Below, piece after piece: positions 6,779 through 36,004 of a stretch of DNA of 64,000 bases (the first letter of the stretch is position 1; each line of letters starts with the position of its first letter). Source of the DNA: Brevundimonas fluminis (GTDB lineage: Bacteria > Pseudomonadota > Alphaproteobacteria > Caulobacterales > Caulobacteraceae); contig NZ_RQWJ01000004.1 in NCBI RefSeq assembly GCF_003934285.1, positions 62,001-126,000 on the forward strand. The letters run 5' to 3'. Position numbers and translations under genes: made by a program. Below the pieces are notes generated by a model, which was given only the letters and a program-made list of their open reading frames with translations, did no database searches and was not told the origin of the DNA.

Positions 6779-7540
6779 ATGCTCTCCATCTTCAACCTCC
6801 ACGTCACCGTCGGCGACAAGCCGATCCTCAACGGGCTGACGCTCGACGTCCCGGCGGGCGAGGTGCACGCCGTCATGGGGCCGAACGGGGCCGGCAAGTC
6901 GACGCTGGGCTACGCCCTGACCGGACGGCCGGGATATGAGGCGACCGCCGGATCGGCGTCGTGGGACGGCGAGGACCTGCTGGCGCTGGACCCGGCCGAG
7001 CGCGCCGCGAAGGGCGTCTTCCTGTCGTTCCAGTATCCGCTGGAGATCCCCGGCGTGCCGGCCATGACCTTCATCCGCACGGCGCTGAACGCCCAGAAGC
7101 GCGCGCGGGGCGAGGCCGAGGTGTCGGCGCCGGACTTCCTGAAGCTGGTCCGCGCCGCGTCGACCCGCCTGAAGATGAATTTCGACATGCTGAAGCGGCC
7201 CCTGAACGTCGGCTTCTCGGGCGGCGAGAAGAAGCGGATGGAAATCCTGCAGATGGTCCTGCTGGAGCCGTCGCTGCTGATCCTCGACGAGACGGATTCC
7301 GGCCTCGACATCGACGCCCTGCGCATCGTCGCCGACGGCGTGAACGCCCTGCGGTCGCCGGAGCGGTCGATGCTGGTCATCACCCACTACCAGCGCCTGC
7401 TGGACTACATCCGGCCGGACCGGGTGCACGTGCTGGCGGCGGGTCGGATCGTCGCCTCGGGCGGCCCGGAGCTGGCCCTGCAGCTGGAGGCCGAGGGCTA
7501 CGACAAGTACGCGCCAGAAGCGCTTCAGGGGGCGGCGTGA
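6779..7540 (+). CDS. sufC: Fe-S assembly ATPase SufC
   Basis: SufC (253 residues) is the ABC-type ATPase of the SufBCD scaffold; its ATP cycle drives the conformational change needed for cluster assembly. Visible motifs are Walker A GPNGAGKST at about residue 34, the SufC-typical LSFQYPLEIPGV Q-loop region, the signature FSGGEKKRMEILQM, Walker B LLILDETDSGLDID and the switch histidine in VITHYQRLL. The start at 6779 lies five bases after the lipoprotein stop. The final codons overlap the GTG start of sufD by four bases. Confidence 0.97.
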   Translation: MLSIFNLHVTVGDKPILNGLTLDVPAGEVHAVMGPNGAGKSTLGYALTGRPGYEATAGSASWDGEDLLALDPAERAAKGVFLSFQYPLEIPGVPAMTFIRTALNAQKRARGEAEVSAPDFLKLVRAASTRLKMNFDMLKRPLNVGFSGGEKKRMEILQMVLLEPSLLILDETDSGLDIDALRIVADGVNALRSPERSMLVITHYQRLLDYIRPDRVHVLAAGRIVASGGPELALQLEAEGYDKYAPEALQGAA

Positions 7541-8562
7541 CGGCGCAGCGGCTCGATCTTCGCGATCCGTCGTCCTTCCCGTCGCGGCGCGTCGAGGCGT
7601 GGAAGTACACCGACGTGCGCCGTCTGCTGCGGGACACGCCGCCGGCGTCTCCGGAGGCCGAGGTTGCGCCGGGCGGGCCGTTCGCGGCGCTGGGCGGCGA
7701 GGAGTTGGCCTTCGTCAACGGCCGCTGCGAAGGGTTTCCGGGGATCGTCGCCAAGGGCCGGGGTGAGGCGCCGATGCGCCTTCGCTTCGTCTCGACCGCC
7801 GACGGCGCCGGACATCAGCCGGAGGCGGCGATCGAGGTGACGGCCGGGTCCCGGCTGGTCCTGCTGGAGAGCCACGAGGGGCGCGCCGCCGGCTACGTCG
7901 CCAACACGCGGCTCAAGATTTCCGTGGGCGAGGGCGCCTCCCTGACGCGGATCGTGCTGGGCGAGGACGCGGCGGACGCTCTCGCCTTCGTCAGGGCCGA
8001 GGTGACCCTTTCGCCCGGCGCCACGTTCGAGCAGGTCACGGCGACGGACGGCGCCAGGCTCCAGCGCTTCGAGACCCACGTCAGCCACCCGGGCCAGGGC
8101 GCCTCCGTCCGCATGGACGGGCTTTATGCACTGTCCGGCGAGCGGCACGCCGACCTGACCAGCGTGGTCACCCACGCCGGGCTCGACGGCCAGACCAGCC
8201 AGCTGGTCAAGGGCGTCGTGCGCGACACGGCGCGCGGGGTGTTCCAGGGCAAGATCGTGGTGGAGCGCGGCGCCGACGGGACCGACGCCCGCATGGCCCA
8301 CAACGCCCTGATCCTGTCCGAACGCGGCGAGGTCGATGCCAAGCCGGAGCTGATCATCTATGCCGACGACGTGCAGTGCGCGCACGGCAACACCGTCGGC
8401 ACGCTGGACGAGAGCGCCCTGTTCTACATGCAGCAGCGCGGCCTGCCGGCGGAGGAGGCGAGGGCGCTTCTGACCCAGGCGTTTCTGTTCGAGGTCGTCG
8501 ACCGCATCGAGCACGACGGCGCGCGCGAGGGGGTGCGGGAATGGCTGACGGCGCGACTGTGA
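7537..8562 (+). CDS. sufD: Fe-S assembly protein SufD
   Basis: SufD (341 residues) is the partner of SufB in the SufBC2D scaffold and is needed for iron acquisition. The N-terminal PSRRVEAWKYTDVRRLL is typical, and the C-terminal SufBD core shows VDAKPELIIYADDVQCAHG followed by GTLDESALFYMQQRGLP. I chose GTG at 7537 because it gives a GTGA overlap with sufC and begins in front of the conserved N-terminal region. The longer frame upstream runs through sufC. The protein is shorter than E. coli SufD, mainly in its N-terminal part, as is common in alphaproteobacteria. Confidence 0.95.
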   Translation: MTAQRLDLRDPSSFPSRRVEAWKYTDVRRLLRDTPPASPEAEVAPGGPFAALGGEELAFVNGRCEGFPGIVAKGRGEAPMRLRFVSTADGAGHQPEAAIEVTAGSRLVLLESHEGRAAGYVANTRLKISVGEGASLTRIVLGEDAADALAFVRAEVTLSPGATFEQVTATDGARLQRFETHVSHPGQGASVRMDGLYALSGERHADLTSVVTHAGLDGQTSQLVKGVVRDTARGVFQGKIVVERGADGTDARMAHNALILSERGEVDAKPELIIYADDVQCAHGNTVGTLDESALFYMQQRGLPAEEARALLTQAFLFEVVDRIEHDGAREGVREWLTARL

Positions 8563-28691: not shown

Positions 28692-29042
28692 ATGTCCTTA
28701 GTCGCCCTCGCCCTGACCGCCGCCCTGCTGGCGCCGCAGGATCCCGTGACGCACGAGCAGGCCGTGACCTGCACGGGCGTCTTCCTGTTCGCCAACATCC
28801 TGATGACCCAGGCGGCCGAGGCGGATCCCACCCCCGAGAACCAGGAGACCGCCGCCGCCGCCGGGCGCCTGATGAAGGCCGCCGACGACGATCGGCTGGC
28901 CGCCGCGCGCCGCGAGGGAATCGCGGTCGACGCCAGCGGACAGGCTCTGAACGTCTGGCTGGAGGCCAGCCTGCCCGACTCCGAGGCCGTCGTGGGTCGC
29001 GAGCTCGATCCCTGCCTGCAGCGCTACATGAGCGCCATCTGA
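28692..29042 (+). CDS. Small exported protein of unknown function
   Basis: I do not recognise this 116-residue protein. It has a short hydrophobic N-terminus (MSLVALALTAALLAPQDP) that fits a Sec signal peptide. The mature part is mainly helical and polar, with a pair of cysteines, one in VTCTGVFLF and one in LDPCLQRYM near the C-terminus, that could form a disulfide. ATG 28692 places the signal peptide at the N-terminus; the longer frame upstream is a shadow of rnr. It is preceded by CCGGAGCCC and followed by 75 bases before the cystathionine beta-synthase gene. Confidence 0.7.
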   Translation: MSLVALALTAALLAPQDPVTHEQAVTCTGVFLFANILMTQAAEADPTPENQETAAAAGRLMKAADDDRLAAARREGIAVDASGQALNVWLEASLPDSEAVVGRELDPCLQRYMSAI

Positions 29043-29117
29043 CCCGCCCGGCGGCTTGACCCCGGGACGGCGCGCGCCCAGCCTCGCGCGCGTTCGTCAA
29101 CCGGAGTCGCCCGTCCC

Positions 29118-30518
29118 ATGCCCACCGCCGCCCCGACCGTCAGCGCGCCGTCCGGCTCGCTGCTCGACCTCATCGGCGCCACGCCCATGGTCGAGGCGAC
29201 GCGGCTGGACACGGGCAAATGCCGCCTGTTCCTGAAGCTGGAATCCCAGAACCCGGGCGGCTCGATCAAGGACCGCATCGCCCTGTCGATGATCGCCGCG
29301 GCCGAGCGCGAAGGCTTCCTGAAGCCCGGCGGCACGATTGTCGAGGCGACCGCCGGCAACACCGGCCTGGCGCTTGCGCTGGTGGGGCAGGCCAAGGGCT
29401 ACAAGGTCCTGCTGGTCATCCCCGACAAGATGTCGAAGGAGAAGATCCAGCACCTGCGCGCCATGGGCGCCGACGTGCGGCTGACCCGCTCGGACGTGCC
29501 GCACGGGCACCCGGAATACTACACCGACATGGCCGAACGGCTGGCCCAGCAGATTCCCGGCGGCTTCTACGTCAACCAGTTCGCCAACGACGCCAACTCC
29601 GCCGCCCATTTCGAGACCACGGGCCCCGAGATCTGGGCCCAGACGGGCGGTGACGTCGGCGCGCTGGTGGCCGGCATCGGCTCCGGCGGCACCATCACCG
29701 GCATCGCCCGCTATCTGAAGTCGGTGGGCTCGGACGCGGAGATCATCCTCGCCGACCCCGTCGGCTCAACCCTGGCCGGGATCGTCAACGAGGGGGTGCC
29801 CGGGCCTGAGGGCAGCTACACGGTCGAGGGCATCGGCCAGAACTTCGTCCCCGACACGGCGGACGTCACCCTGATCGACAAGGCCTATTCCATCCCGGAC
29901 GCCGAGGCGATCGCCACCGTGCGCGAACTGCTGCTGAAGGAAGGCATCCTGGCGGGCTCGTCGTCGGGCACGCTGATCGCCGCGGCCCTGCGCTGGTGCC
30001 GCGAACAGACCGAGCCGAAGACGTGCGTCACCTTCGTCTGCGATACCGGCGCCAAATACCTTTCCAAGGTCTACAACGACGCCTGGCTGGCCGATCAGGG
30101 GCTGACCGACCGGCCGATCCACGGCGACCTCAGCGACCTGATCACCCGGCGGCCGGAGGAGGGCGGAGTGGTCGTGGTCGGTCCCGACGACACGCTGGAC
30201 ACCGCGTTCAAGCGCATGCGCGGCTCGGACGTGTCGCAGCTGCCCGTGCTTCAGGACGGACGGCTGGTCGGCATCCTGGACGAGAGCGACATCGTCCACG
30301 TGCTCGACACGGACGAGATCACGCGCAAGGAGCGTTTCGCCAAGCCCGTCTCCTCGGCCATGACCCGAGATCTGGACACGGTTCAGGTCAATGAGCCGCT
30401 GGACGCCCTGATCCCCCTGTTCGATCGGGACCGCGTGGCCATCGTGCTGGATGGCGAGCGGTTCGTCGGCCTGATCACCCGCACGGATCTCATCAACCAC
30501 CTCAGCCTGAACCGATGA
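29118..30518 (+). CDS. Cystathionine beta-synthase type PLP enzyme with two C-terminal CBS domains
   Basis: This 466-residue enzyme has a PLP fold type II catalytic domain (about 12-330) and a CBS-pair regulatory module (about 340-466). It would condense serine or O-acetylserine with homocysteine or sulfide. The PLP lysine is in NPGGSIKDRIAL, the phosphate loop is GIGSGGTITG and the substrate loop EATAGNTG is intact. The CBS pair shows VSQLPVLQDGRLVGILDESD and IVLDGERFVGLITRTD. No heme-binding N-terminal extension is present, so it is the bacterial, heme-free form. Its partner enzyme, at 34563, is separated from it by five hydrolase genes. Confidence 0.92.
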   Translation: MPTAAPTVSAPSGSLLDLIGATPMVEATRLDTGKCRLFLKLESQNPGGSIKDRIALSMIAAAEREGFLKPGGTIVEATAGNTGLALALVGQAKGYKVLLVIPDKMSKEKIQHLRAMGADVRLTRSDVPHGHPEYYTDMAERLAQQIPGGFYVNQFANDANSAAHFETTGPEIWAQTGGDVGALVAGIGSGGTITGIARYLKSVGSDAEIILADPVGSTLAGIVNEGVPGPEGSYTVEGIGQNFVPDTADVTLIDKAYSIPDAEAIATVRELLLKEGILAGSSSGTLIAAALRWCREQTEPKTCVTFVCDTGAKYLSKVYNDAWLADQGLTDRPIHGDLSDLITRRPEEGGVVVVGPDDTLDTAFKRMRGSDVSQLPVLQDGRLVGILDESDIVHVLDTDEITRKERFAKPVSSAMTRDLDTVQVNEPLDALIPLFDRDRVAIVLDGERFVGLITRTDLINHLSLNR

Positions 30519-30526
30519 GCCGGAAC

Positions 30527-30659
30527 CCGTCGCCATTCGTGGCGACCTTGCGGCGAACCGGCTGGACTGGGGCGAAATTGCGGTGAAGCCTGTCCCCCTC
30601 TCCTGAACGGTGGGGCAGGCCGACATGACGACTTCCCGTTTCCTCGCATTCTTCGCCGC
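30527..30659 (+). repeat. Leader plus signal-peptide repeat, copy A
   Basis: This 133-base unit is repeated at 31440-31572 with 12 mismatches and no gaps. It starts with the hairpin GTCGCCA-TTCG-TGGCGAC (30529-30546), and runs through the ribosome site and ATG of hydrolase 1 to about codon 11. The upstream part sits directly after the cystathionine beta-synthase stop. It appears to be a duplicated promoter or leader cassette. The mature coding sequences after it are far less alike. Confidence 0.85.
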
Positions 30660-31431
30660 GACCGCGGCTCTGCACCTGGCGGCCCCCGCGCACGCCCAGT
30701 CGATCCCGCCGACGCGGACGACCCCGGTCGGTATGCCCGGCTGCGGTCAGGACGTGCCTCTGGCCGCCACGCGCGCGAGCATCACCTTCGCCAGCGGCGG
30801 CAAGGACATTCCGGCGATCCTGTACGAGCCGCAGGGCGTGCCGCACGCCTCGACGGCGGTGGTCATCCTTCATGGCCGCGACGTCGCGGGCGAGATGATC
30901 TATCTGGACGATCACGCCCTCCAGTTGGCGTCCCGGGGCGTCTCGGTGCTGCTGCCCTTCTATCTGGCGGCCGACGATGGACGGGACCCCGAGCCGGCTC
31001 GAGCCCGGGCGGCGCATCGGACGTGGCGACGGGTGGCGCTGGACGCCGCCGAGGCTCTGGCGGCGGAGCGGGGCGTGTCCCAGCGTCAGGTGCATCTTTG
31101 GGGACACACGCGAGGGGGCGGCGTCGCGGTCGCCGCGGCGCTGGAACGGGGCAGCCCGGTCGGCGGGGCGATCGCCGTCCAGATCGGCGGCAGGCCGCAG
31201 GATTCCGCTGAAGGTCTGGGCCGCCCCTTCCTTCTGATCTACGCGCCTGACGCCCTGTTTCCGGCCGCGCAGGGGCGGGCCATGGCCGATGCGATCCGTG
31301 AGGACGGGGGCGTGGTCGAGGAAATCCGCATTGGAGTTCCGTGGGAAAGCTGGGCCGGGGCGGAATGGTGCGCGGTCTTCGACCATTCGCGTGCCCATTT
31401 CGACAGATCGCGCCTCTCGGCCGGCGACTGA
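30625..31431 (+). CDS. Exported alpha/beta-hydrolase paralogue 1, catalytic residues lost
   Basis: This 268-residue protein is the first of five tandem paralogues of the dienelactone-hydrolase-like group. It has a Sec signal peptide (MTTSRFLAFFAATAALHLAA, ending AHAQ). The catalytic residues of its neighbours are missing. The elbow reads GHTRGG, with T162 in place of serine, the acid region reads LIYAPDALFP, and the base region VPWESWAG has no histidine. It does keep the family tail W-C-x-x-F and exactly two cysteines (C40, C249), aligned with those of copies 2 and 3. ATG 30625 is chosen over GTG 30610 because the GTG lies in the ribosome-site region. It is probably a pseudoenzyme. Confidence 0.85.
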   Translation: MTTSRFLAFFAATAALHLAAPAHAQSIPPTRTTPVGMPGCGQDVPLAATRASITFASGGKDIPAILYEPQGVPHASTAVVILHGRDVAGEMIYLDDHALQLASRGVSVLLPFYLAADDGRDPEPARARAAHRTWRRVALDAAEALAAERGVSQRQVHLWGHTRGGGVAVAAALERGSPVGGAIAVQIGGRPQDSAEGLGRPFLLIYAPDALFPAAQGRAMADAIREDGGVVEEIRIGVPWESWAGAEWCAVFDHSRAHFDRSRLSAGD

Positions 31432-31439
31432 CACGACCG

Positions 31440-31572
31440 CCGTCGCCATTCGTGGCGACTTTGCGGCGAACTTGCTGGACTAGGGCGAAATTGTGGTGAA
31501 GCCTGTCGGCCTTTCGTGAATGGTGGGGCAGGCCGACATGACGACTTCCCGTTTTCTCGCATCCTTCGCCGC
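31440..31572 (+). repeat. Leader plus signal-peptide repeat, copy B
   Basis: This is the second copy of the 133-base unit described at 30527. The hairpin GTCGCCA-TTCG-TGGCGAC is fully conserved at 31442-31459, and the ATG of hydrolase 2 is at the same offset (98 bases). It lies nine bases after the stop of hydrolase 1, so the hairpin may act as a processing or attenuation element between the two genes. No T-run follows it. Confidence 0.85.
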
Positions 31573-32329
31573 TGCGGCGGCGCTCTTCGGCGCCGGCGCG
31601 GCCTTGGCCCAGGCGCCCGCGTCCATGGCCGGTTGCGCCGACGACGTCCGGCACAATGCGACCCGCGACTCCATCACCTACCAGTATCGGGGCAAGGCCA
31701 TCCCGGCCCTCTTCTACAAGCCGCGTCCTGGGACGGAGAACGGCGTCGGCATCGTGCTGCTGCACGGCTTCATGGGTCTGGGCGGGCACGGACCGCTGTT
31801 CGACCCCCACGCCATCCAGCTGGCCTCGCGCGGCTACACCGTTCTGATGCCCAGCTACTTCGACGCCCGACCCTGGCGACAGCGGTTCAACGGGGACGAC
31901 ATGAAGGAGTGGTCCCAGGCCTCGGGCGAGGCCGTCCGCTTCCTGGCGTCGCAGCCCGGCGTCGATCCGCAGAAGGTCGTCCTGTGGGGGTATTCGCTGG
32001 GCGGCTACCTGGCCACCGACGGCTCGCTGACCGACTACGGCGCGGCGGCGGGGGCCATCGGGGTTTCGGCGGGAACGGACATCTTCGAGCACGCCTCCCG
32101 CGGCTCGCGGCCGATCCCGATCCTGCTGATGCACGGGCGATCGGACCGGTCGGTCAGCGTCCGCTCCATGGAGGCGCTGGGCAGGAATCTCTCGGTGCGC
32201 GGGGCGACGGTGGAGACCGAGCTTCTGGACCGCCAGCAGCATGAGCTGGACGCCCCGACCTGGTGCCACGTCTTCGGGCGCACGCGGCGGTTCCTGGAAA
32301 CCCACTTCCTACCGGCGCCGTCGGCCTGA
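31538..32329 (+). CDS. Exported alpha/beta-hydrolase paralogue 2 (dienelactone-hydrolase-like)
   Basis: This 263-residue protein starts MTTSRFLASFAAAAALFGAG, with a Sec signal ending near ALAQA. It keeps a full catalytic triad: S153 in GYSLGG, D203 in HGRSDRSVS and H235 in RQQHELD, followed by the family tail W-C-H-V-F. The oxyanion region is LLHGFMGLGG. It has only two cysteines, C33 at the start of the mature chain and C243 in the tail, which could join the two ends. The substrate is unknown; the fold family hydrolyses small esters and lactones. It lies seven bases before the start of paralogue 3. Confidence 0.9.
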   Translation: MTTSRFLASFAAAAALFGAGAALAQAPASMAGCADDVRHNATRDSITYQYRGKAIPALFYKPRPGTENGVGIVLLHGFMGLGGHGPLFDPHAIQLASRGYTVLMPSYFDARPWRQRFNGDDMKEWSQASGEAVRFLASQPGVDPQKVVLWGYSLGGYLATDGSLTDYGAAAGAIGVSAGTDIFEHASRGSRPIPILLMHGRSDRSVSVRSMEALGRNLSVRGATVETELLDRQQHELDAPTWCHVFGRTRRFLETHFLPAPSA

Positions 32330-32336
32330 CCGCGCC

Positions 32337-33095
32337 ATGAAGGCCCGGCTGGTCGCCCTGGCTCTGCTGACGACCGCCGTGGGGACCGCGCCCGCCGTCG
32401 CCCAGGTCGACTCCTGCCCCGGCGACATGGCCGGTCCCGCGACGCGGGCGACGGTCGAGTACGTCAGCGGCGGGCGCGCGATCCGGGCCCTGCACTATGT
32501 CCCCGGCCGGCCGAACGGCCGGGCGCTGGTCCTGCTGCACGGCGCGGGCGGACTGCGTCAGGACGCGCCGGTGTTCGATCCGCATCTCCTGCAGCTGGCG
32601 GCGCGAGGCTGGCACGTGCTGGCTCCGGCCTATTACGACGCGCTGGACCCGCCCGAACGCCGGACCAGCCGCGATCTGCGGGTCTGGCGGCGCGTGGCGC
32701 ACGACGGCGCCGGCTGGCTGCGGCGGCGGCCGGGCATGGAGGCGGGCCGGGTCGCGGTCATGGGCTACTCCCTCGGGGGTTTTCTGGCGGTCGAGGCGGC
32801 GATGGAGGAGCCGGTCTGGTCGGCCGGGATCGCCGTGGCGGCGGGCCTGGACGTGGGCGAGCCCCTGCGCGACCGGCGCGGGACGCCGCTGCTTCTCATT
32901 CACGCCGAGCGGGATCCCGTGATCTCGCCGGTGTCGACGCGGCAGTGGGCGGGCGGGCTGGAGCGGCGGGGCGCCGCCGTGCGGGTGCACGAACTGGTCT
33001 GGTCGGGCCATTTCTTTGACAGGGCGACGTGGTGCGGCATCTTCTCGGAGACGACCGCTTTTCTGGACGCCGCCATGCCGGACGCCGCGCCATGA
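32337..33095 (+). CDS. Exported alpha/beta-hydrolase paralogue 3 (dienelactone-hydrolase-like)
   Basis: This 252-residue protein starts MKARLVALALLTTAVGTAPA, with a Sec signal ending near VAQ. The triad is S145 in GYSLGG, D193 in HAERDPVIS and H225 in WSGHFF, with the tail W-C-G-I-F. The oxyanion region is LLHGAGGLRQD. Its only two cysteines, C27 and C233, match those of copies 1 and 2. ATG 32337 was chosen because it begins with the signal peptide; the longer frame upstream is a shadow of paralogue 2. It overlaps paralogue 4 by four bases. Confidence 0.88.
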   Translation: MKARLVALALLTTAVGTAPAVAQVDSCPGDMAGPATRATVEYVSGGRAIRALHYVPGRPNGRALVLLHGAGGLRQDAPVFDPHLLQLAARGWHVLAPAYYDALDPPERRTSRDLRVWRRVAHDGAGWLRRRPGMEAGRVAVMGYSLGGFLAVEAAMEEPVWSAGIAVAAGLDVGEPLRDRRGTPLLLIHAERDPVISPVSTRQWAGGLERRGAAVRVHELVWSGHFFDRATWCGIFSETTAFLDAAMPDAAP

Positions 33096-33826
33096 TGCCG
33101 AACCGCCGTGAGGTGCTTGCGGGCCTGCCGCTGGCCGCCGCACTGCCGGGGACCGCTTCCGCCCGCGCGCAGGAGATGGCGCCCGGCGTGGCGCTGACCG
33201 CCTTCGTCAGCGCGGGCCAGGAGGTGGCGGCCGTCCTCTTCACCCCGACCCGGCCCGGCGGGGCCATGCGCGGGGCGGGCGTGATCCTGCTGAACGGCGG
33301 CGGCGGCACGAACAACGACCTGCCGCGCTTCTGGCGCGACGCCGTGCGCATGACCGAGCGCGGCTACGTCGTCGTCATGCCCAACTATCTGGGCGCGACG
33401 CCCGAGCCGAGCCCGCGAAACCGGGCGCGATGGGCCGAACTGGTCGCCGACTGCGCCGACTGGCTGGCCGCCGCGCACGGCGTCGGCGCGGGCAGGGTGG
33501 CCCTGATGGGGTTCTCCCGGGGGGGCTGGCTGGCGACGGAGACCGCCCTGACCCGACCCGGCTTCCGCTGCGCCGTGGGCATCGCCTCGGGCGGGGACCT
33601 GCCGGTCGAGGCGATCACGCACCGGCCGCCGGTGCTGCTGATCTACGCCGACGCCGATCCCGTCGTGCCGCCCGCCTCGACCCGGGCCTGGCAGCGCCGG
33701 ATGCGCGACGCGGGCGTCCGCGTCGAGACCCACGTGCTGGACTCCGGCAACCATGTGTTCGAGCCTTCGGAGTGGAGCGAGATCTTCGGGCGCGCGGAAC
33801 GCTTCGCCCGGCCACACCTCGCCTGA
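33092..33826 (+). CDS. Exported alpha/beta-hydrolase paralogue 4 with twin-arginine-like signal
   Basis: This 244-residue protein starts MMPNRREVLAGLPLAAALPG. It has an RR pair followed by a weakly hydrophobic stretch and a likely cut after ARAQ, which resembles a Tat signal. The triad is S142 in GFSRGG, D189 in YADADPVVP and H221 in SGNHVF, with the tail W-S-E-I-F. Here serine replaces the tail cysteine of copies 1-3, and there is no N-terminal mature cysteine. Cysteines at 121 and 160 are elsewhere in the fold. The oxyanion region is LLNGGGGTNND. It overlaps paralogue 3 by four bases (ATGA). Confidence 0.88.
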   Translation: MMPNRREVLAGLPLAAALPGTASARAQEMAPGVALTAFVSAGQEVAAVLFTPTRPGGAMRGAGVILLNGGGGTNNDLPRFWRDAVRMTERGYVVVMPNYLGATPEPSPRNRARWAELVADCADWLAAAHGVGAGRVALMGFSRGGWLATETALTRPGFRCAVGIASGGDLPVEAITHRPPVLLIYADADPVVPPASTRAWQRRMRDAGVRVETHVLDSGNHVFEPSEWSEIFGRAERFARPHLA

Positions 33827-33837
33827 AGGAGGCCCCG

Positions 33838-34566
33838 ATGAGACGACGCGCCGTGCTGGGCGGGCTGGTCGCGCTGGGCGCGGCGCCGGCGGCGGCGCAG
33901 GAGCCGCTGCTGACCTATGCGGGGATGACCTTCCGCAGCCACGGCAAGGACATCCGCGCCATCCACTATCGCCCGCTGGGCGCCGAGCGGAAGTCGGCCA
34001 TCGTCATGATGCACGGCTCGGGCGGCCGCATCCGCAACGACGGGCCATGGCACGATCTGGCCATGCAGTTCGCGGGCGACGGCTACGAGGTCCTGACGCC
34101 GCTCTACACCGACGCCTGGCCGGATGACGGGATACGCCCGCCGGCCATGATGGAGGCGTGGCGCGACGTCGGCGAGCACGCGGTCGACTGGTTCATCGCC
34201 CGCGGGATCGACCGGCGGCGCACGGCCATGTTCGGCTATTCGCTGGGGTCCTACGTCGCCGTCGACGGGGCGCTGGGCAACAGCCGCGCGGCGGCCGCGA
34301 TAGGGCTGGCGGGCGGCGTCGACGTCTATACGCCGCGGGCCCCGCGTCGGCGGATTCCGGTGCTGATGATCCGTGCCCAGAACGACACCCATGTCCTGCC
34401 GCGCAACACCGACGCGTGGATCGACTTCCTCCGCGATCGCGACGTCCCGGTGCGCGAACACACGATCGTGGGGGCGGGTCACCTGTTCCGGCCGCAGGAA
34501 TGGGTGGAAATCTTCCAGGTCTCGGCCCAGTTCTACGCCTCGAACGTCGGCCGGGAGATTCGATGA
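33838..34566 (+). CDS. Exported alpha/beta-hydrolase paralogue 5 with twin-arginine-like signal
   Basis: This 242-residue protein starts MRRRAVLGGLVALGAAPAAA, an Arg-rich Tat-like signal with a likely cut after AAAQ. The triad is S135 in GYSLGS, D183 in RAQNDTHVL and H215 in GAGHLF, with the tail W-V-E-I-F. It contains no cysteine at all. The ribosome site AAGGAGG at 33826-33832 is the strongest in the array. Its stop overlaps the ATG of the gamma-synthase/lyase gene by four bases, so it is translationally coupled to a sulfur amino acid enzyme. Confidence 0.9.
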   Translation: MRRRAVLGGLVALGAAPAAAQEPLLTYAGMTFRSHGKDIRAIHYRPLGAERKSAIVMMHGSGGRIRNDGPWHDLAMQFAGDGYEVLTPLYTDAWPDDGIRPPAMMEAWRDVGEHAVDWFIARGIDRRRTAMFGYSLGSYVAVDGALGNSRAAAAIGLAGGVDVYTPRAPRRRIPVLMIRAQNDTHVLPRNTDAWIDFLRDRDVPVREHTIVGAGHLFRPQEWVEIFQVSAQFYASNVGREIR

Positions 34567-35723
34567 CCATCCGCAACCGTCAGGGCTTTTCGACCCGCGC
34601 CATCCACGCGGGTCAGAGGCCCGACCCAACGACCGGCGCGGTCATGACGCCGATCTACGCGACCTCGACCTACGCCCAGGAAAGTCCGGGCGTGAACAAG
34701 GGCTATGAGTACGCGCGCGGCAAGAACCCGACGCGCGAGGCGTTCGAGGCCTGTCTGGCTGACCTGGAGGGGGGCACGCACGCCTTCGGCTTCGCCTCCG
34801 GGATGGCGGCGACCTCCACGGCGCTGGAGTTGCTGGACGCCGGCTCGCACATCGTCACCGGCGACGACCTGTACGGCGGCTCCTGGCGGCTGTTCGAACG
34901 GGTGCGGCGGCGCTCGGCGGGGCTGGACTTCGCCTACGTCGACTTCAGCGACCTGTCGGCCGTCGAAGCCGCCATCACGCCGAAGACGAGGATGATCTGG
35001 GCCGAGACGCCGACCAATCCGCTGATGAAGCTGGCGGACATTCAGGGCCTGTCGAGGATCGCCAGGGCCCACGGCCTGATCCTGGTGGTCGACAACACAT
35101 TCGCCACGCCGTGGAGCCAGCAGCCGTTGTCGCTGGGCGCCGACGTGGTCATGCACTCGGCGACCAAATACCTGAACGGCCACTCCGACGTCATCGGCGG
35201 GGCCCTGGTGACGGCGAACGCCGAACTCGCGACGCAGCTCAAGTTCCTGCAGAATTCCGTCGGCGGCGTGATGGGGCCGTTCGACGCCTTCCTTGCCAAC
35301 CGTGGTCTGAAGACCCTGGGCGTGCGGATGAAGGCGCACAACGAGAACGCCCTGGCCGTCGCCCGCTGGCTGGAAGACCGCAAGGGCGTGGCCCGGGTCG
35401 TCTATCCGGGTCTGATCTCCCACCCCCAGCACGATCTGGCGGCGCGGCAGATGAACGGCCGCTTCGGCGGCATGGTCACGGCGATCATCGACGGCGACCT
35501 GGCCCGCACGCGTCAGGTGCTGGAGCGGGTGCAGGTCTTCACCCTGGCGGAATCGCTGGGCGGCGTCGAAAGCCTGGTCAACCACCCCGCCATCATGACC
35601 CACGCCAGCGTGCCGAAGGAGCTGCGCGAGGCCGGCGGCGTCACCGAAAATCTGATCCGCCTGTCGGTCGGCGTGGAGGACGTCGAGGACCTGATCGCCG
35701 ATCTGGACCAGGCGCTGGGCTGA
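34563..35723 (+). CDS. Trans-sulfuration PLP enzyme (cystathionine gamma-synthase / gamma-lyase family)
   Basis: This 386-residue Cys/Met-metabolism PLP-dependent enzyme makes or cleaves cystathionine. The N-terminal [19 protein letters not shown], the [10 protein letters not shown] region, the PLP lysine in [15 protein letters not shown] and the C-terminal [19 protein letters not shown] are diagnostic of the family, but synthase and lyase cannot be separated by eye. Together with the cystathionine beta-synthase at 29118 it would complete a reverse transsulfuration route from homocysteine to cysteine. ATG 34563 overlaps the hydrolase 5 stop; the longer frame upstream lies within that gene. 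Confidence 0.93.
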
Positions 35724-35727
35724 GGCG

Positions 35728-35979
35728 TCAGCCCGGCAAAGCGGTCTGATGCCCGGTCGCCGGCAGTTCCTTCTTCTTGCGCACCGGCGCCTTGCGCACG
35801 ACCGGCACGGGGGGCAGTGCGGCCCGACGCGCGCGCTCTTCGTCGATCACGGGAAGAAGCTCCGCCGCCGCGGTCATCTGGGTTCCCGTTCCGTGCGCGA
35901 TCAGTCGTTCGGCGTTGGCGCGCAGGATCTTCAGGTCGTCGTCGTTCATCAGAGGAACGCGTTCGCTCAGCGGGGTCAT
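35728..35979 (-). CDS. Small protein of unknown function
   Basis: I do not recognise this 83-residue protein. It begins [20 protein letters not shown]. It has a helical, charged first half and a basic, proline-rich second half ([21 protein letters not shown]). It has no signal peptide or membrane segment. ATG 35979 is supported by AACAGGAGCTGCCC directly upstream on the minus strand, a good ribosome site. It is convergent with the gamma-synthase/lyase gene, four bases away, and follows the IF-1-like gene on the same strand after a 25-base gap. Confidence 0.6.
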
Positions 35980-36004
35980 GGGCAGCTCCTGTTAGGTGGC
36001 GGCC

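Follow-up and report, generated by a model that had tools for sequence, protein, structure and literature searches.

Why are five exported hydrolases encoded between the two genes of a putative transsulfuration pair? The question is raised by a 64,000-nucleotide stretch of the Brevundimonas fluminis genome (contig NZ_RQWJ01000004.1, positions 62,001 to 126,000 of the forward strand), which is referred to here as the window. In it, five tandem genes for exported alpha/beta-hydrolases of 242-268 codons (h1 to h5) are flanked by a gene of the cystathionine beta-synthase (CBS) type and a gene of the cystathionine gamma-synthase/lyase (CGS/CGL, below CGL) type, all on the + strand. Both flanking genes encode pyridoxal phosphate (PLP) enzymes. 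The answer that we favor, with moderate confidence, is that h1-h5 form a set of periplasmic serine hydrolases, a cassette prone to turnover that is related to the DLH and S9 families, carries an esterase-type Ser-Asp-His triad, is nearly confined to the genus, and occupies a permissive slot in the CBS-CGL operon. The PLP genes would mainly supply a place and, by inference, co-transcription, and a substrate common with transsulfuration would not be needed to account for the data. In other words, the sulfur link of the array is probably one of position only. The parts of this picture that are directly observed are the anatomy of the locus, the copy numbers, the two designs of its members, the losses of the triad, purifying selection on a triad-less lineage, the alternative cargo of the slot, and the adjacency of outlying copies to receptor genes. 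In open-access papers, judged mostly from their titles, no account of this hydrolase locus was found.

The distribution of the family was surveyed in 131 genomes of the genus, which were searched with a profile of the five hydrolases of the window and with CGL and CBS, and the places of the matches were compared. Both PLP genes lay on one contig and strand in 121 genomes. The interval between them held no hydrolase in 80 of these, one in 17, two in 13, three in 9, four in 1, and five in 1. Five copies are thus the maximum and were found in the window only. The ten remaining genomes comprised seven with a broken interval or with one gene unmatched, and three with neither gene at the cut-off. 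A strong match was defined by an E value of 8.4e-26 or better (n=96), and the next among the matches listed had a value of 1e-16 or weaker. Of the strong matches, 79 fell in intact intervals, 4 lay elsewhere, and 13 were in the seven genomes with broken or incomplete intervals, where the assignment of one, G087:C4, is presumed. The sequence-only reading of the window had proposed that the hydrolases are bound by position to the CBS-CGL interval, and this was borne out, as only 4 of the 96 matches, rather than most of them, lie clearly elsewhere.

Outside the genus, the family is rare. A search with the single sequence of h2 in 249 genomes of the family Caulobacteraceae, representing 22 genera, found close matches in Brevundimonas alone (E 1e-10). 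In the same search, 14 genomes of other genera gave weak partial matches, with E values between 1e-10 and 1e-13 and within frames 614-769 amino acids long. Among 385 genomes of the class, with at most six candidates scored per genome, 8 outside the genus matched at E 1e-30 or better. No CBS or CGL gene was found near these 8 distant loci in the ~5 kb examined on each side.

Nearly all genomes of the genus have the CBS-type and CGL-type genes, whether or not hydrolases lie between them. What does the interval contain when the hydrolases are missing? In 70 of the 80 hydrolase-free intervals, only 4-25 bp separate the matched ends, and in the other 10 the distance is 676-1099 bp. Nine of these ten long intervals (L071-L079) contain two small genes, and the one pair that was scanned encodes DUF4160 and DUF2442 proteins. 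PMC8198452 describes DUF4160 and DUF2442 as the domain pair of dhiTA, a predicted toxin-antitoxin system of Dickeya dadantii. A sample of 119 genomes of the family, in which genomes below a cut-off of E 1e-140 are uninformative, contained 34 genomes outside the genus with both PLP genes at E 1e-140 or better. In 31 of them the two genes shared a contig and strand and were separated by 23-692 bp. Eight of the other-genus intervals measured 455-692 bp. Five of these, all from one genus (g31; L235, L237, L238, L239, and L240), carry ParD-/ParE-like open reading frames (ORFs), an assignment confirmed by Pfam in the three pairs scanned, with the second gene of L239 disturbed. The remaining three, from three genera, carry ORFs without a Pfam match. 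Neither the hydrolases nor the DUF4160-DUF2442 pair was matched in the ten other-genus intervals fetched. The presence of DUF4160-DUF2442 and ParDE pairs in the gap indicates that unrelated cargo is accepted in at least two genera. These pairs occupy the same interval in other species, but their proteins are unrelated to the hydrolases and have the position alone in common with them.

The variability of the slot was compared with that of its surroundings by counting the genomes in which an interval exceeds its median by more than 400 bp. The CBS-CGL interval did so in 36 of 77 named genomes, and the neighboring intervals in 18/70, 13/45, 0/45, 1/72, 10/21, 5/11, 0/13, and 0/1. It is the most variable among the intervals with at least 45 genomes. 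The tenth of the long hydrolase-free intervals, that of G074 (L080), contains a 357-codon ORF with a CGL-like start and a CBS-like end. This hybrid was probably left behind by a tandem duplication of the PLP pair. As for the pair itself, the sequence-only reading had named the genes as CBS type and CGS/CGL type, and model scores make these fair names. The second gene exceeds the cystathionine gamma-synthase model by 7 bits (520 vs 513), and the first falls below the cut-offs of both cystathionine beta-synthase (390 vs 510 bits) and cysteine synthase A (368 vs 387).

The array comes and goes often, and it mostly does so along lines of descent. A CBS+CGL tree, in which 29 of 76 rows have arrays, requires 16 presence/absence changes, 12 of which are forced by well-supported branches. 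The mean after shuffling was 23.5 changes, and none of 500 shuffles was as low as 16. Furthermore, hydrolase distances correlated with CBS or CGL distances in four classes of hydrolase (r 0.41-0.81, Mantel p 0.0005-0.02), and the mean distances of the hydrolase classes were 2.4-6 times those of CBS or CGL. The array changes together with the distance correlation argue for mostly vertical descent with many losses or gains, and not for free movement. No support was found for flank recombination as the means by which empty and filled alleles are swapped. In nine close pairs (seven empty vs hydrolases, two empty vs other cargo), identity followed in 200-nt steps revealed no consistent change at the junction. 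In one pair (L138/L137) identity drops to 84% in the last CBS step, and at greater distances several profiles run unevenly or contain gaps.

Within the window, the sequence-only reading had described five paralogous genes, each with a signal peptide and a W-x-x-[IV]-F tail, the last of them coupled to the CGL gene. All of these points stood up, coordinates included. Signal peptides, judged by eye, are present on all five proteins, each ending in A-x-A ahead of a Q. The tails read WCAVF, WCHVF, WCGIF, WSEIF, and WVEIF from h1 to h5. The h5 and CGL genes overlap by ATGA at 34563-34566, and a second ATGA overlap joins h3 and h4 at 33092-33095. The members are of two designs. The S design (h1-h3) combines a Sec-like signal with a conserved Cys pair, and the T design (h4-h5) has an RRxxL signal without the pair. 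The features of the locus are listed below in window coordinates, with class names taken from the tree described further on.

29118..30518, + strand: CBS-type PLP gene, with a PALP domain and two matches to the CBS domain; left border of the slot
30519..30624, + strand: h1 leader, repeated from 30527 before h2; contains GTCGCCA-TTCG-TGGCGAC; core tentatively like the CBS 3' end of relatives
30625..31431, + strand: h1, S type, Sec-like signal, Cys pair kept; Ser replaced by Thr and His lost; with class SC on a very long branch, placement unsure
31432..31537, + strand: h2 leader, 98 nt at 90% to the h1 leader
31538..32329, + strand: h2, class SA of the S type, with Cys pair and intact Ser-Asp-His; 86-87% identical to its orthologue in G017
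32337..33095, + strand: h3, class SB of the S type, with Cys pair and intact triad
33092..33826, + strand: h4, class TA of the T type, with RRxxL signal, intact triad, and no Cys pair; ATGA overlap with h3
33838..34566, + strand: h5, T type, class TB, intact triad; ATGA overlap with the CGL start
34563..35723, + strand: CGS/CGL-type PLP gene; right border of the slot

The Pfam DLH family (PF01738; gathering cut-off 21 bits) was matched by h2 (42.0 bits), h3 (39.5), h4 (40.7), and h5 (35.1). No Pfam family was matched by h1, which can be aligned to h2-h5 across its full length at 31-37% identity. Its third-position GC is 0.83, as against 0.90-0.94 in h2-h5. No sigma-70 promoter consensus was found within 30400-34700 (0.2 expected), an Rfam scan of 29000-36000 gave no match, and the leaders of h1 and h2 fold as RNA no better than their shuffled versions (z -1.0 for both).

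The two designs were followed through 89 array-member proteins. Of the 47 genomes in which a strong match lies at or by the interval, 46 contributed, and the 47th, G127, a contig-end fragment, was left out. Contig ends truncate three members (G087_2, G089_3, and G109_2), and the fragments G087:C4 and G109:C134 were excluded. One site of the Cys pair lies near the mature N-terminus and the other in the W-C-x-x-F tail; in h2 the two are Cys33 and Cys243. The pair is all-or-none in 85 of 85 readable members, with both Cys in 39 and neither in 46. An RRxxL-like signal is present in all 46 T members, and this loose pattern also fits 7 of the 39 S members. The twin-arginine motif precedes the hydrophobic stretch and reads NRREVLAG in h4 and RRRAVLGG in h5. 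In arrays that contain both designs, S lies upstream of T in 15 of 17 and downstream in two (G100 and G130). The designs also fall on opposite sides of one branch of an unrooted tree (support 93), and in a tree with few S members the S group may sit between the two T classes. These motifs suggest that S members would be exported by Sec and that their two Cys, one near the mature N-terminus and one in the tail, would probably be joined by a disulfide. T members, on the other hand, would probably be exported folded by the twin-arginine translocation (Tat) system. Both the route of export and the disulfide in vivo are inferred from the sequences.

A tree of 86 rows resolved the members into classes SA (with h2), SB (h3), SC, TA (h4), and TB (h5), along with smaller S groups. 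The array of the window spans two classes of the T design and two or three of the S design. Orthologues of h2, h4, and h5 are present in the nearest relative, G017. By this tree, the array copies are old paralogues of two designs.

Not all of these paralogues appear to be enzymes. All 46 T members and 31 of 40 S members, 77 of 86 in total and h2-h5 among them, retain the complete Ser-Asp-His triad. The nucleophile column contains Ser in 84 members, Thr and Trp in the remaining two, and Cys in none. The nine triad exceptions are h1, one Ser-to-Trp change (G089), and a seven-member clade of class SA that we call SA-psi. In h1, the triad columns read T-D-E, the elbow is GHTRG, and the catalytic His is gone. 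In SA-psi, found in 7 genomes, Asp is changed to Thr and His to Arg or Pro, and the GFSLGG elbow is kept. Pairwise omega is 0.03-0.18 in the SA-psi clade vs 0.06-0.15 among active orthologues. These low values mark SA-psi as a conserved pseudoenzyme whose sequence is under purifying selection. In G014, SA-psi is the sole family member found in the slot. In G133, which is close to G014 (dN 0.005), it stands alone on a contig that ends just upstream. Its solitary presence in the slot of G014 speaks against a role that needs an active neighbor, an argument from one lineage and one sure genome. Catalysis would have been lost separately in h1 and in one S lineage of relatives, and selection keeps the SA-psi lineage, presumably as binding or scaffolding proteins. 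A disruption of another kind is found in G010 (L111), where a TAG lies just before the conserved W-C of the tail of the second hydrolase, reflecting either a truncated gene or an error of metagenome assembly. The strict split into two designs and the conserved loss of catalysis are the most interesting facts of the locus.

Could the array nevertheless be genomic flotsam, near-neutral genes that are gained and decay at a variable site and are of little use to the cell? The 16 changes of presence, 12 of them forced, fit this explanation, as do the degenerate state of h1, the TAG in the middle gene of G010, and hydrolase distances that exceed those of CBS and CGL by 2.4-6 times in a region whose neighboring intervals vary too. 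However, decaying genes do not agree well with low omega, with a triad intact in 77 of 86 members, with a strict correlation between Cys pair and signal, or with distances that track those of CBS and CGL, and we regard this explanation as improbable.

If the cassette is maintained by selection, on what do its active members act? Most likely, they hydrolyze small exogenous esters or lactones that enter through the outer membrane, and the sole clue to function is given by the neighbors of outlying copies. The predicted structure of h2 (pLDDT 91.2) has a single alpha/beta-hydrolase core, and that of h1 (86.1) is still a hydrolase fold. Foldseek matches were generic and included acylaminoacyl peptidases, catalytic domains of DPP4, esterases, and a PETase, with TM-scores to the query of ~0.5-0.67. 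The family and fold searches gave no specific hint of a substrate, and none of a thioester or sulfur ester. Two known families come closest. The DLH family was matched by 57 of 58 scanned array members, and, like a DLH protein, h2 has a single core with no visible lid insert in its predicted secondary structure. Classical dienelactone hydrolases have a Cys nucleophile in a Cys-Asp-His triad, whereas the array members have a Ser nucleophile and are exported, and h1 has no Pfam match. Likewise, the catalytic domain of S9/acylaminoacyl peptidases provided the top Foldseek matches of h2 (5l8s and DPP4 structures), and PF00326 was matched by 50 of 58 members. Unlike S9 peptidases, the array proteins are stand-alone, ~240-300 amino acids long, and without a second domain.

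The neighbors of the outlying copies point to the outer membrane. Each of the four outlying copies adjoins a gene for a TonB-dependent receptor on the same strand. Three copies (G012, G077, and G106) lie beside a receptor of 1167 amino acids, and an independent G106 copy lies beside one of 1110 amino acids. Because the first three are orthologues, the four adjacencies amount to two independent loci. For L222, L224, and L225 the receptor itself was scanned, for L223 it was placed by a plug search, and the nearest flanking ORFs were partly annotated. The outlier genomes have 27-35 receptor plug matches each. Adjacency by chance would concern ~2% of genes, with ~3,000 genes assumed, and two independent loci would occur by chance at a rate of ~0.02 squared, which is a rough estimate. 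The adjacency suggests that the outlying copies hydrolyze something imported through the outer membrane. There is a partial parallel in the organophosphate hydrolases, which are metal enzymes of a different fold from the array hydrolases. The phosphotriesterase of sphingomonads resembles the arrangement proposed here in its pre-folded export by Tat, its periplasm-facing location, and its link to the TonB complex. PMC7142613 describes this enzyme as targeted in a pre-folded state by Tat and associated with the TonB complex.

The receptor neighbors bear on a second alternative, in which the linkage to CBS and CGL is functional. The sequence-only reading had suggested that the array releases a sulfur- or amino-acid-containing ester or thioester precursor in the periplasm. 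As a sulfur-scavenging module, the exported hydrolases would free such a compound for CBS and CGL. In its favor are the near restriction of the family to the CBS-CGL interval, the ATGA overlap of h5 and CGL and the junctions that are short or overlapping in most filled intervals among those listed, the order of S before T in 15 of 17 mixed arrays, and a methionine sulfoxide reductase gene near one outlier (L225). However, 80 of 121 genomes have CBS-CGL without hydrolases, unrelated cargo is found in the same slot, the outlying copies lie beside TonB receptors, and neither family nor fold hints at a thioester substrate. The suggestion therefore lacks support, and a sulfur module is an unlikely account of the array. 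Least likely of all is detoxification or signal quenching, in which toxic esters or lactones of competitors are hydrolyzed and presence follows ecological conflict: frequent turnover and a slot shared with toxin-antitoxin pairs do resemble accessory conflict genes, but direct evidence is lacking, no gene of a resistance type came to notice next to the array, in a 64-kb window where no search aimed at such genes was made, and the sole NCBIfam match of h1, to chloramphenicol hydrolase (E 0.00068, 18.6 vs 500 bits), is no evidence of function.

Several observations weigh against a periplasmic cassette in a permissive slot. Co-directional genes and short or overlapping junctions could also reflect selection for function with CGL. 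The fold matches are loose, with root-mean-square deviations of 3.7-7.8 A. No TonB plug match is present on the 625-kb contig of the window (G000:C5), in a genome that has 20, and the receptor link is therefore one of the family and not of this locus. In L225, a methionine sulfoxide reductase (MsrA) gene at 7512-8162 lies ~500 bp from the outlying hydrolase copy. Finally, some neighboring intervals with small samples are equally variable; the slot is not unique, and the whole stretch is somewhat plastic.

A bolder extension of the cassette reading, to which we give limited credence, is that one locus unites a Sec/disulfide design, a Tat/no-Cys design, and dead members kept by selection, that the lone dead member is a binding protein or sensor of the ligand of the hydrolases, and that in at least two genera the CBS-CGL gap is a cargo slot of a housekeeping operon, occupied by turns by enzyme cassettes and toxin-antitoxin pairs. 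Whatever its role, the family forms a natural series of 0-5 copies, two export designs, and dead and live paralogues at one locus in one genus, in which the choice of export route, the use of a disulfide, and the loss of catalysis can be compared. The locus also demonstrates that position in a metabolic operon can mislead, as the gap between sulfur genes holds toxin-antitoxin pairs and hydrolases alike. Guilt by association should therefore be checked against alternative cargo.

The origin of h1 deserves separate treatment. A direct repeat of 82% identity (30527-30702 vs 31440-31615) covers the leader and signal peptide of h1 and h2, and the proteins are only 37% identical. The 109-nt h1 leader has two matches in the whole genome, one before h1 and one before h2. 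The repeat and the restriction of the leader to these two places indicate that this stretch was copied or converted later than the mature parts diverged. On this evidence, h1/h2 is a mosaic produced by gene conversion or copying. A recent tandem duplication of h2 as the source of the mature part of h1 is not favored. Grouping h1 with h2 costs 29.5 log-likelihood units (approximately unbiased test, p 0.039), for an h2 group that was named after seeing a tree. The tree of 86 rows grouped h1 with SC at a support of 97, but on a branch of length 1.55. Forcing h1 together with twelve SC members costs 17.1 units (p 0.143) and is not rejected, although this grouping too is absent from the free fit. 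No clear orthologue of h1 was found in the array-member tree, where its placement is unsure; between h1 and h2, dN is 0.72 and dS is 1.14.

Whether the leader is a remnant of a duplicated CBS 3' end was also considered, and the candidate is tentative only. A profile of the CBS 3' end was matched in the same part by 10 of 11 leaders, with low scores of -0.6 to 11.6 bits, and not at all by the eleventh (G113). The best of 1100 shuffles scored 2.8 and the best of 959 other pieces of the window 9.3, and only the leaders of G073 and G048 exceed these controls; the leaders are, moreover, related to one another. In pairwise tests against CBS, 2 of 10 leaders reached the lowest possible p of 0.002. 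Leader cores that resemble the CBS 3' end in the same register precede the first genes of L110, L116-L120, L123, and L125 and h1 of the window (30519-30624), and the core could be left over from an earlier copy of CBS.

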